From: Micromonospora coxensis
GTDB lineage: Bacteria > Actinomycetota > Actinomycetes > Mycobacteriales > Micromonosporaceae
NCBI RefSeq assembly: GCF_900090295.1
Contig: NZ_LT607753.1
Location: forward strand, 1,426,001-1,490,000
Length of the DNA stretch: 64,000 bases
Reading direction: 5' to 3'
Position 1 is the stretch's first letter. Each line of letters begins with the position of its first letter. Made by a program: the position numbers and the translations under genes. This document shows, piece after piece, positions 58,333-61,363 of this stretch. The notes below the pieces were generated by a model that was not told the DNA's origin, did not search any database, and saw only the letters and a program-made list of their open reading frames with translations.

Positions 58333-58905
58333 GTGCCCAGAGTAAGTCAGGACCAGCTCGACGCGCGCCGGCAGGAGATCCTCGGTGCGGCGCGGGCCTG
58401 TTTCGCCCGGCACGGCTACGAGGGAGCCACCGTGCGCCGGCTGGAGGAGGCCACCGGGCTGTCCCGGGGCGCGATCTTCCACCACTTCCGGGACAAGGAC
58501 TCGCTCTTCCTCGCCGTGGCCGAGGACGACGCCGCCGCGATGGTCGAGACGGTGGCCCGCAACGGTCTGGTCCAGGTCATGCGGGACCTGCTCGCCCGGG
58601 CCGTCTCCCCGGACACCACCGGCTGGCTGGGCAGCCAGCTGGAGGTCTCCCGCCGGCTGCGCACCGACCCGGCCTTCGCCCGCCGCTGGGCCGAGCGCTC
58701 CGCCGCGATCGCCGAGGCGACCCGGGAGCGGCTGGTCCGCCAGCGGGAGGCCGGAGTGCTGCGCGAGGACGTCCCGATCGACGTGCTGGCCCAGTTCCTG
58801 GAGCTGGCGTACGACGGTCTGGTGCTGCACCTGGCCATGGGGCGCCCGGCCGGCGACCTGGGGCCGGTGCTGGACCTGGTCGAGGAGGCCGTGCGCCGGC
58901 GCTGA
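58333..58905 (+). CDS. acnR: TetR-family regulator, AcnR-like (aconitase repressor)
   Basis: 190 residues. The N-terminal HTH (RRQEILGAARACFARHGYEG; ATVRRLEEATGLSRGAIFHH; FRDKDSLFLAVA) is very close to Corynebacterium AcnR, which represses aconitase and senses citrate/Mg. C-terminal domain is helical (LVQVMRDLLARAVSPDTTGWL; FLELAYDGLVLHLAMG). In corynebacteria acnR sits beside acn; here they are about 12 kb apart, but the same palindrome precedes both genes, supporting the assignment. The symbol is given by similarity. It probably represses itself as well. Confidence 0.75.
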   Translation: MPRVSQDQLDARRQEILGAARACFARHGYEGATVRRLEEATGLSRGAIFHHFRDKDSLFLAVAEDDAAAMVETVARNGLVQVMRDLLARAVSPDTTGWLGSQLEVSRRLRTDPAFARRWAERSAAIAEATRERLVRQREAGVLREDVPIDVLAQFLELAYDGLVLHLAMGRPAGDLGPVLDLVEEAVRRR

Positions 58906-59004: not shown

Positions 59005-59919
59005 ATGACCGTCCTCGCCGCCCCGGGTGACACCTGGGGCATCCCCGGTCCCGTCTTCCTCGGCCTGTACCTGACGGCCGCCGTCGTGGTGGTCGTCGGC
59101 GCGATCGTGCACCGGTCCCGGATCATCGCCGGACGGCCGGTCGGCCGGATCGACGCCCTCGGCCCGCAGCAGGTGGCGTACCTCAACGGCGGCGACCAAC
59201 TCGCGGTCTGGACCTCGCTCGGCGGGCTGCGCGGCAGCGGCGCGGTCGGCGTCCGCCCCGACCGGCGGCTCACCACCGGCAGCGCGCTGCCCGCCGGGGT
59301 CACCCCGCTGGACCAGGCGGTCCACCACGCGGCCCGGCGCAACCTGTACGCCCGCGAACTCAGCCGCGACGAGTGGGTGGTCCGGGCCCTGACCCAGCTG
59401 CGGGAGGGCCTCGAACGGCAGGGCCTGGCGCTCTCCCCCGCGCAGCGGCGCACCGCCCGCAACGGCTCCCTGGCGGTGCTCGGCCTGCTCGTGCTCGGCG
59501 CGGTACGGATGGGCGCCGGGCTGTCCCAGGGCAAGCCGATCGCCTTCCTGCTGATCGCCTTCCTCGTCCTGGCCGGCACGGCAATCCTGCTGAACCGGGT
59601 GCCGTGGCGTACCCGGGCGGCCGACGCCGCGCTGCGTGAGCTGCGCCGGCGGCACACCCACCTCGCCCCCTCCTCCGCGCCGGCGTACGCCACCTACGGC
59701 GCGGCCGGCGCGGCGATGGGCGTCGCCCTGTTCGGCACGGTCTCGCTCTGGAGCCTGGACCCGGGCTTCGCCGAGCAGGCCGAGATCCAGCGGCAGGCGC
59801 TCAGCGGCGGCGGCGCGGGCAGTTCCGGCGGCACCTCCTGCGGGGGCGGCAGCTCGTGCAGCGGCGGCAGCTCCTGCGGCGGCGGTGGCGGCTGCGGCGG
59901 TGGCGGGTGCGGCGGGTGA
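59005..59919 (+). CDS. TIGR04222 membrane protein with Gly/Cys-rich tail
   Basis: 304 residues. Four hydrophobic segments: FLGLYLTAAVVVVVGAIVH (18-36), SLAVLGLLVLGAVRMGAGL (155-173), IAFLLIAFLVLAGTAIL (179-195) and YGAAGAAMGVALFGTVSLW (231-249). The region DQLAVWTSLGGLRGSGAVGV to RRRHTHLAP matches TIGR04222. The tail from residue 268 is nearly only Gly, Ser and Cys. All five Cys of the protein are there (279, 285, 291, 297, 302), spaced 6, 6, 6 and 5, which looks like a modification substrate. GACAGGAG upstream of the ATG supports the start. Its stop overlaps the GTG of the DUF692 gene, so they are translated together. Confidence 0.8.
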   Translation: MTVLAAPGDTWGIPGPVFLGLYLTAAVVVVVGAIVHRSRIIAGRPVGRIDALGPQQVAYLNGGDQLAVWTSLGGLRGSGAVGVRPDRRLTTGSALPAGVTPLDQAVHHAARRNLYARELSRDEWVVRALTQLREGLERQGLALSPAQRRTARNGSLAVLGLLVLGAVRMGAGLSQGKPIAFLLIAFLVLAGTAILLNRVPWRTRAADAALRELRRRHTHLAPSSAPAYATYGAAGAAMGVALFGTVSLWSLDPGFAEQAEIQRQALSGGGAGSSGGTSCGGGSSCSGGSSCGGGGGCGGGGCGG

Positions 59920-60728
59920 CCGGCCCGAGCGGGGTGGGCATCGGCTGGCGGCCGGAGATCGCCGGTTTCGTCGCCGAGCTGCCCGGGCTGCGCTTCGTCG
60001 AGGTGGTCGCCGAGTCGGTGCACGCCGAGCTGCCGCCGGGCCTCGCCGAGCTGCGGGCGCGCGGGGTCACCGTCGTGCCGCACGGGGTGCGGCTCTCCCT
60101 CGGCGGCGCGGAGCCGGTCGACCCGTCCCGGGTGGCCCACCTGGCGCGGGTGGCGGAGCTGGTCGACGCGCCGCTGGTCAGCGAGCACATCGCGTTCGTC
60201 CGGGCCGGTGGCCTGGAGGCCGGCCACCTGCTGCCCCTGCCGCGCAGCCGGGAGGCGGTGGCCGCGGTGGTGGCCAACGTCCGGCGCACGCAGGCCGAGC
60301 TGCCGGTGCCGCTGGCCCTGGAGCCGATCGCCGCCCTCTTCGACTGGCCCGACGACGAGCTGGACGAGGCGGACTTCCTCACCGAGATCCTCGACGCCAC
60401 CGGGGCGGGGCTGCTGCTCGACGTCGCCAACGTGCACGCCAACGCCCGCAACCGGGGCGGCGACCCGCTCGCCCTGCTGGACCGGCTGCCGCTGGACCGG
60501 GTCGCCTACGTCCACGTGGCCGGCGGCGCGCAGCGGGGCGGTTTCTACCACGACACGCACACCGACCCGGTGCCGCCGGAGGTGCTCGACCTGGTCGGCG
60601 CGCTCTGCGCCCGGCGCCGCCCCCCGGCGCTGCTGCTCGAACGCGACGGCCACTACCCGCCCGCGCCGGAGCTGCGGGCCGAGCTGGACGCCCTGGCCGC
60701 CGCCTCCGGGTACCCGGTGGTCACGTGA
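59916..60728 (+). CDS. DUF692 (MNIO) family multinuclear iron enzyme
   Basis: 270-residue TIM-barrel protein of the DUF692/MbnB-TglH-ChrH superfamily, multinuclear non-heme iron-dependent oxidative enzymes that modify Cys or other residues in peptides. Candidate metal ligands: His56 (VVPHGVRL), Glu90-His91 (VSEHIAF), Glu136 (LALEPIA), Asp169-Asn172-His174 (LLLDVANVHANARN), His200 (YVHVAGG), Asp213 and His215 (YHDTHTDP) and Glu242 (LLERDGHY). The ligand pattern looks complete, so an active enzyme is likely. GTG start coupled to the TIGR04222 gene (GTGA), and its own stop overlaps the next start. Role inferred: modification of the neighbour's cysteine tail. Confidence 0.85.
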   Translation: MTGPSGVGIGWRPEIAGFVAELPGLRFVEVVAESVHAELPPGLAELRARGVTVVPHGVRLSLGGAEPVDPSRVAHLARVAELVDAPLVSEHIAFVRAGGLEAGHLLPLPRSREAVAAVVANVRRTQAELPVPLALEPIAALFDWPDDELDEADFLTEILDATGAGLLLDVANVHANARNRGGDPLALLDRLPLDRVAYVHVAGGAQRGGFYHDTHTDPVPPEVLDLVGALCARRRPPALLLERDGHYPPAPELRAELDALAAASGYPVVT

Positions 60729-61363
60729 CCGCCACCGACCCGCCGGGGCCGCCCGCCGGGGCCGGACCACCCGCCTCGGCGGCACCCCGCACCGGGACCG
60801 GAGCACAGGCGGCAGCACCGCAGGTCGCCGGACCGCCCGCCGGGACCGCAGCGCAGACGGTTCCGCGAGGCGGCGGGCCCGCGGCCACGCCGTCGTCCGT
60901 ACCACCGGTGGTGGCGCCGTCCGGCGACCTGGCCGCCCGACAGGCCGCCCTGGTGGCGGCCCTGGTCGCCGGCGCGCCCACCCCGCCCGGCTTCGCCACC
61001 GCCCCGGTGGCGGCGGCCCGGGCCGCGCTGCTGCGCAAGCGGGCCGGTGACGTGGCGCGGCACTGGCCGCTGCTCGCCGCCGGTCTCGGGGACACCTGGT
61101 GGGAGACATTCCGTGCCTGGGCGGCGGACCGGCCGACCAAAGGGTCGCTGCGCGACGGCTGGGACCTGGCCCGCGACCTGCGCGCGCGGGACGCCCTGCC
61201 CCCGCTCGGCGCCGAGGAGCTGGCGACCCGGGAGGCGAGCACCCGCTACGACGGCCGGGGCACGCCGCGACCCCGCCGGCTGCCGGCCGTCGCCCGCGCC
61301 GGCGGCGCCGTCGCGGTCCAGCTCGCCGGTCGGGTACGCCTGCTGCGCCCGGCCCGCCGCTGA
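60725..61363 (+). CDS. SCO6045-like protein, MNIO partner candidate
   Basis: 212 residues. The first 70 are Pro/Ala/Gly/Thr-rich and disordered (PPGPPAGAGPPASAAPR). The rest is a helical domain: RQAALVAALVAGAPTPPGF, RAALLRKRAGDVARHWPLLAA, WWETFRAWAADRPTKGSLRDG and RDALPPLGAEELATREAS. That domain resembles the SCO6045-like family recalled from actinobacterial genomes next to DUF692. It could act as a substrate-recognition or delivery partner, as small partner proteins do for other MNIO enzymes. The GTG is coupled to the DUF692 stop (GTGA). No catalytic motif. Confidence 0.7.
   Translation: MTATDPPGPPAGAGPPASAAPRTGTGAQAAAPQVAGPPAGTAAQTVPRGGGPAATPSSVPPVVAPSGDLAARQAALVAALVAGAPTPPGFATAPVAAARAALLRKRAGDVARHWPLLAAGLGDTWWETFRAWAADRPTKGSLRDGWDLARDLRARDALPPLGAEELATREASTRYDGRGTPRPRRLPAVARAGGAVAVQLAGRVRLLRPARR

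Follow-up and report, generated by a model that had tools for sequence, protein, structure and literature searches.

A coupled TIGR04222, MNIO and PF26136 gene unit of Micromonospora and its predicted cysteine-tail substrate

What does the MNIO enzyme (DUF692, PF05114) encoded between a TIGR04222 membrane protein gene and a PF26136 gene of Micromonospora coxensis act on? We addressed this question in a window of 64,000 nucleotides, the whole stretch of DNA that was analysed, and in related loci of other actinobacteria. Overall, the three genes probably form one unit in which the MNIO, with its PF26136 partner, would oxidise the cysteines of the Gly/Ser tail of the TIGR04222 protein, with the tail being what the enzyme follows. 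The coordinates and frames of all three genes (Table 1) were verified against the window sequence, and the genome holds one TIGR04222 match and one MNIO match. An earlier note, made from this DNA alone, had described GTGA overlaps at both gene junctions. Both are present in the sequence, and the genome search that the note proposed finds the pairing again together with 4-nt overlaps at 63 of the 85 junctions between TIGR04222 and MNIO genes and at 63 of the 80 between MNIO and third genes (unfused, same strand; window included in both counts). That these genes have to be produced in step, as the note stated, goes further than the overlaps warrant. A TetR-family gene (58333-58905, same strand) lies directly 5' of the TIGR04222 gene, and a blastp relative of it occurs in 12 of 12 Micromonospora main loci and 37 of 40 other Micromonosporaceae loci, with none in the remaining class loci. 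No copper link was found among two neighbours scanned with NCBIfam and Pfam.

Table 1. Features of the three-gene unit (window positions) and of Cys-tail frames in three other loci (locus positions)
Feature	Position	Strand	Remarks
TIGR04222 membrane protein gene	59005..59919	+	304 aa; predicted MNIO substrate
MNIO (DUF692, PF05114) gene	59916..60728	+	270 aa
PF26136 (SCO6045-like C-terminal domain) gene	60725..61363	+	predicted MNIO partner; alternative start 60908
GTGA overlap, TIGR04222 stop / MNIO start	59916..59919	+	
GTGA overlap, MNIO stop / third-gene start	60725..60728	+	
Tail from first Cys onward	59839..59916	+	all five Cys, ends CGGGGCGG; predicted modification site
Small Cys-tail protein in L225	L225:1654-1929		91 residues, one helix, Trp-Trp motif, Cys/Gly/Ser tail
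Larger Cys-tail frame	L293:2116-3543		476 aa frame, just 5' of fused MNIO-PF26136
Larger Cys-tail frame	L294:4451-5806		452 aa frame, just 5' of fused MNIO-PF26136

The first protein of the unit scores 166.1 bits with the NCBIfam TIGR04222 (near_uncomplex) model over residues 21-249, which is above the cut-off of 43. Its nearest relatives, from Micromonospora citrea and M. halophytica, are 93% identical over 88% of the query, and two relatives of 304 aa each (P0121 and P0122) begin at the identical Met. Hydrophobic stretches are located at residues 10-44, 153-202 (two) and 232-251, in line with the four helices described earlier, although the fourth is weak, with a Kyte-Doolittle value of 1.53 across 19 residues, and a value of 1.3 is attained in 46% of 114 aligned rows. 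When the positive-inside rule of membrane topology is applied to the Lys plus Arg content of 114 aligned Cys-tail rows (0.12 per residue for the domain past helix 1, 0.20 for the loop leading into helix 4 and 0.02 for the tail), the TIGR04222 domain is predicted to be cytoplasmic. Because helix 4 is weak, the membrane side of the window tail is a guess. The published description, in the available part of the paper, places large domains of TIGR04222 proteins, and their tail, in the periplasm (PMC12452194).

The only Cys residues of the window protein are at 279, 285, 291, 297 and 302 in the Gly/Ser tail, exactly as first noticed; the 6-residue spacing reported with them holds for the first three gaps, whereas the last gap is 5. 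This spacing is also modal in Micromonosporaceae Cys tails (91 of 173 spacings; n=59 tails), which have 2-6 Cys each and end with GCGG in 54 cases, and in which all 232 Cys are preceded by Gly or Ser. It is broader among the 61 other Cys tails, 25 of which end with GCGG. Across the 180 extracted regions plus the window, 9,086 stop-to-stop frames reach 100 aa; 122 of them have a Cys tail, and 120 of the 122 belong to the set of 200 TIGR04222 genes. This scarcity among background frames rules out chance tails in GC-rich frames. A second Micromonospora TIGR04222 gene (L038, L144, L146, L148, L150, L152, L154, L156, L158 and L160) has no MNIO in its stretch, no Gly/Ser/Cys tail and a short end such as PKPARR. 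TIGR04222 relatives P0167 and P0232 carry a precomputed match to PF20990, which we take to be the DUF2207 C-terminal domain.

The second protein scores 261.8 bits with PF05114 (cut-off 25). In the available text on TglH, this enzyme has nine Fe ligands, an essential Asn73 and a C-terminal Cys as its target. All nine ligands have a counterpart in the window enzyme (H56, H91, E136, D169, N172, H200, D213, H215 and E242), which bears out the complete His/Asp/Glu set claimed before, while Asn73 has no aligned counterpart. These ligands are intact in 118 of 119 MNIO rows, window included, the partial row L168 being not alignable. The window MNIO is a predicted oxidase of residues in a ribosomal product.

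For the third protein the database gene call begins at 60908 (151 aa); we favour the start at 60725 because the overlap recurs in relatives. The window's own third protein (P0001) has a precomputed PF26136.1 match, which our Pfam scan did not return. Counting the window, 117 of 119 MNIO loci contain a PF26136 relative (exceptions L075 and L168), which is fused to the MNIO in 37 of the 119. Among 6,059 database matches to an MNIO-PF26136 fusion, the best 120 are 433-564 aa long with both Pfam domains present. The third gene lies directly 3' of the MNIO gene, or is fused to it in relatives, which is the placement of a PME-type 2 partner. The overlaps, the fusions and the co-occurrence all argue for the earlier suggestion that this gene encodes the MNIO partner. 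With regard to a possible relation to DUF2063, NGO1945 and TglI, the partner profile scores 24.8 against 25 DUF2063 rows, a value reached by none of 200 column shuffles (maximum 16.9), and at most 18.4 against nine other families, but hhalign gives a probability of only 5.6% over 29 columns. The resemblance of the profile to DUF2063 is weak, though it exceeds these controls. The Pfam scan found no DUF2063 match in the partner protein, and no PDB relative of the partner alone was found by sequence. Searches with PF26136 and related terms found no literature, and SCO6045 appears once, in an RNA-seq table, in the text available.

We next compared the presence of the tail with the presence of an MNIO in samples of 394 class genomes and 250 family (Micromonosporaceae) genomes. 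The class search gave 109 genomes with a TIGR04222 match and 120 of the 180 extracted regions, covering 104 genomes, 103 of which have a stop-ended TIGR04222 gene; the remaining 60 regions come from the best matches listed in the family search and consequently lean to high scores. An MNIO was called local when it lies within the extracted stretch, about 4.5 kb on each side of the TIGR04222 gene, and a Cys tail was defined as at least 2 Cys and a Gly+Ser+Cys fraction of at least 0.7 in the last 30 residues. This criterion was set after the first result; an earlier one misplaced plain Cys tails such as L020 and L023 yet gave the same overall picture. Genes without a stop in the stretch, such as L003 whose Cys tail is cut by the contig end, were left out of the counts. 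Family f1 was labelled Micromonosporaceae from the nearest relatives in M. citrea and M. halophytica, and genus g7 Streptomyces-like from P0241, which is identical to the L019 fusion and named Streptomyces fructofermentans.

Among the 132 TIGR04222 genes of the class sample, 57 have both a Cys tail and a local MNIO, 7 only the tail, 23 only the MNIO and 45 neither; for all 200 genes these values are 112, 8, 26 and 54. All eight Cys tails without a local MNIO are in genomes with an MNIO elsewhere. Counted by genome (103 actinobacterial genomes), 59 have a Cys tail and an MNIO, none a Cys tail only, 20 an MNIO only and 24 neither (Fisher 9.9e-12, relatedness uncorrected). Thus 59 of 59 genomes with a Cys-tail TIGR04222 gene contain an MNIO, and the Cys tail is missing from 24 of 24 MNIO-less genomes, where MNIO absence per genome comes from one search that missed at least one MNIO (G462, positive by a separate profile). 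Gly/Ser-rich tails differ in the same direction: with a local MNIO 112 contain Cys and 2 do not, as compared with 8 and 8 without one, and 6 of these last 8 Cys-free tails belong to MNIO-less genomes. The 250 Micromonosporaceae genomes comprise 171 with both genes, 6 with TIGR04222 only, 4 with MNIO only and 69 with neither. For the TIGR04222-only genomes the rule had been predicted beforehand, and no Cys tail was found in 6 of 6 genomes and 7 of 7 genes at 1e-8, one of these genes having a single Cys. A tree built from 178 TIGR04222 rows yields no more than 8 well-supported independent pairs whose members differ in local MNIO; with averages of 2.9 agreeing, 0.1 disagreeing and 5.0 showing no difference, these pairs cannot reach 0.05. 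Since there are few independent MNIO changes on this tree, the Fisher values mainly count relatives.

The 20 class genomes that have an MNIO but no scored Cys-tail TIGR04222 gene include 15 Streptomyces-like ones, 13 of which contain a fused MNIO and a Cys-less TIGR04222 gene in one locus (the others are G566 and G706). A degenerate MNIO was ruled out by the intact Fe ligands, and a search for hidden Cys-tail TIGR04222 genes found none in 16 genomes while being positive in both controls. The latter search, made with a Streptomyces Cys-tail TIGR04222 protein, gave a weak extra match in G706, which proved to be another protein, the small single-helix protein of L225 (Table 1). Relatives of this small protein were found in 14 of 63 genomes by a single-sequence search, with G750 matched by this search only, and in 25 of 80 genomes by an alignment search. 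The latter comprise 15 of 15 Streptomyces-like exceptions, 24 of 36 g7 MNIO genomes and 1 of 20 other MNIO genomes, as compared with 0 of 24 MNIO-less genomes, only two of which are Streptomyces-like and one of which (G171) is called MNIO-less because it is not among the 94 genomes of the MNIO search. The class test's own 24 MNIO-less genomes also gave no small protein (single-sequence search of all 24, alignment search of 18). The alignment search is not exhaustive, since G634, G650, G494 and G461 are unmatched yet carry such a gene beside the MNIO. All 25 matches are Cys-tailed and 80-121 aa long, and 24 have the Trp-Trp motif. None has Lys or Arg before the helix and all have at least 4 after it, so their tails are predicted to be cytoplasmic, facing the MNIO. 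In Streptomyces-like genomes the small gene is not adjacent to the MNIO gene. This family of small single-helix Cys-tail proteins of Streptomyces-like MNIO genomes, encoded in L238-L275 and exemplified by L225, has an SWWAG-like motif. A PF25184 (YxzE) lead, at 32.7 bits against a cut-off of 40, gave nothing.

With regard to the other exceptions, G698 contains the small protein and a Cys-tail gene that a contig end truncates, and the G600 tail fails solely by the chosen cut-off. G540, G427 and G590 have an MNIO and TIGR04222 with no Cys tail found in TIGR04222 genes or by the small-protein search; the G590 MNIO adjoins a DUF2063 gene. Overall 76 of 79 MNIO genomes (59 + 15 + 2) have a Cys tail on either scaffold. 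The earlier note had named an intact DUF692 protein beside a Cys-less TIGR04222 tail as refuting its idea. Streptomyces-like genomes do show this combination, yet in them a different protein bears the Cys tail.

MNIO loci without TIGR04222 were analysed with a relaxed criterion (Gly+Ser+Cys fraction 0.6, length 30), which 14 of 22,277 non-TIGR04222 frames in the 180 loci satisfy as background. In ten of 20 such loci a Cys-tail frame lies on the same strand as the MNIO. In seven (L276, L278, L279, L280, L286, L287 and L288) the overlap of a small single-helix Cys-tail gene with the MNIO stop is 4 or 16 nt long, and the partner gene comes next; for L278 the overlap is 52 nt, or 4 nt from a later ATG, so that both possible starts overlap the MNIO gene. 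The small gene of L290 is 3' of the partner gene. The larger frames of L293 and L294, which have no Pfam or NCBIfam match, possibly represent a third tail scaffold. For loci without the tail, the small protein is encoded elsewhere in the genome in G023, G193 and G566, and a Cys-tail TIGR04222 gene lies elsewhere in G486, G478 and G714, the G486 locus being its second MNIO locus; G635, G729, G595 and G663 show an MNIO but no Cys tail within the stretch analysed. Two further actinobacterial clusters (L183 and L185) combine MNIO and DUF2063 genes with a Cys-rich frame ahead (207 aa in L183, where the locus edge may truncate it, and 184 aa in L185) and are possibly bufferin-like. Because all 15 Streptomyces-like exceptions and the seven TIGR04222-less loci carry the tail on a small protein, it is the tail and not the scaffold that follows the MNIO. 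This suggests that the tail itself, on quite different membrane proteins, is what the MNIO recognises.

These results bear on three other explanations. That the MNIO has another main substrate, with unmodified Cys tails binding metal or partner proteins and bringing, for example, iron or the enzyme to the membrane, would fit the seven MNIO genomes found without a Cys tail. It is nevertheless unlikely given that the tail recurs on unrelated scaffolds adjoining MNIO genes, and that MNIO-less TIGR04222 tails are without Cys although six such genes keep Gly/Ser tails. We give very little credence to co-inheritance only, where an old operon moved the genes together and the counts mirror ancestry. 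The few independent changes on the TIGR04222 tree are what it has in its favour, but both gene orders exist in same-strand Cys-tail pairs (MNIO downstream in 98 and upstream in 15), Cys tails are kept where the MNIO is elsewhere in the genome, the prediction for the six TIGR04222-only genomes was borne out, and another scaffold takes the place of TIGR04222. Least probable of all is a TglH-like modification of the terminal Cys alone, with another role for the inner Cys: these are conserved with their modal spacing of 6, and the TglH-essential Asn73 is missing from the window alignment, even though TglH acts on a C-terminal Cys, in the text available, and the last Cys is third from the C-terminus in 54 of 59 Micromonosporaceae tails.

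Modification of the tail by the MNIO and its partner is consistent with the overlaps, fusions, co-occurrence and unrelated scaffolds, and we infer that it is the tail that serves as substrate. The window unit belongs to this predicted class, and its relatives considerably strengthen the tail-as-substrate reading. Rings formed from Cys (thiooxazole, or oxazolone/thioamide, of the kind seen in bufferins and methanobactin) would be the likeliest products and would give a membrane-tethered metal-binding tail; chemistry, metal and function are guesses here. With somewhat less confidence, we lean towards a portable Cys/Gly/Ser tail as the tag by which a large MNIO-PF26136 system of actinobacteria would recognise its substrates and modify at least two unrelated membrane scaffolds in place with no classical leader peptide, the MNIO-less TIGR04222 proteins being an unmodified Cys-free form. 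Most MNIO substrates studied so far are peptides. Should the tail prove to be modified, the reach of MNIO chemistry would widen to membrane proteins across Actinomycetota, and a tail transferable between scaffolds would be practical for peptide engineering. An 80-residue protein and a natural single-chain MNIO-partner fusion ease testing.

The families and gene order of the window are the same as in the TIGR04222/MNIO/PME-type 2 clusters of Antoine et al. 2025 (PMC12452194), in the available text of which TIGR04222 tails are already proposed as MNIO substrates with PME-type 2 partners. The examples there include a Micromonospora TIGR04222 protein (WP_179806563), so a membrane-protein tail as substrate is not the novelty that it had been taken for, and a 158-aa M. 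matsumotoense PME-type 2 protein, which P0047, a relative of the window third protein, resembles in species and length. That text gives no modified product for this arrangement, and it calls the TIGR04222-MNIO association "loose", with 490 of 1372 TIGR04222 genomes lacking an MNIO and partners in at least 10% of clusters, as compared with the Cys-free tails of MNIO-less genomes, the partner in 117 of 119 loci and the 37 fusions found here. The question, raised in print, of why an MNIO is missing from a third of TIGR04222 genomes may find its answer in the Cys-free tails of such genomes in our sample. Its adjamnio-V group, "very small proteins" after the MNIO, may correspond to our small Cys-tail proteins. 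The text available contains no Cys-versus-MNIO count, mentions no MNIO-partner fusion for the TIGR04222 group and describes no small Cys-tail membrane protein in these terms.

Among characterised systems, bufferins (BufA/BufB/BufC) also have an operon of a Cys-bearing protein, an MNIO and a partner, and BufB is the best NCBIfam model for the window MNIO (177.8 bits, below the equivalog cut-off of 310); unlike in bufferins, a membrane protein is the predicted substrate here, and Pfam shows no DUF2063 match for the partner. TglHI of 3-thiaglutamate synthesis, as far as the available text goes, shares the nine Fe ligands and the enzyme-partner pair with the window but differs in Asn73 and in its peptide substrate with a C-terminal Cys. 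Finally, the window MNIO scores 26.6 bits with the MbnB model (cut-off 325), and in MbnBC of methanobactin, in the text available, an MNIO with a partner acts on Cys, as is proposed here for the tail.
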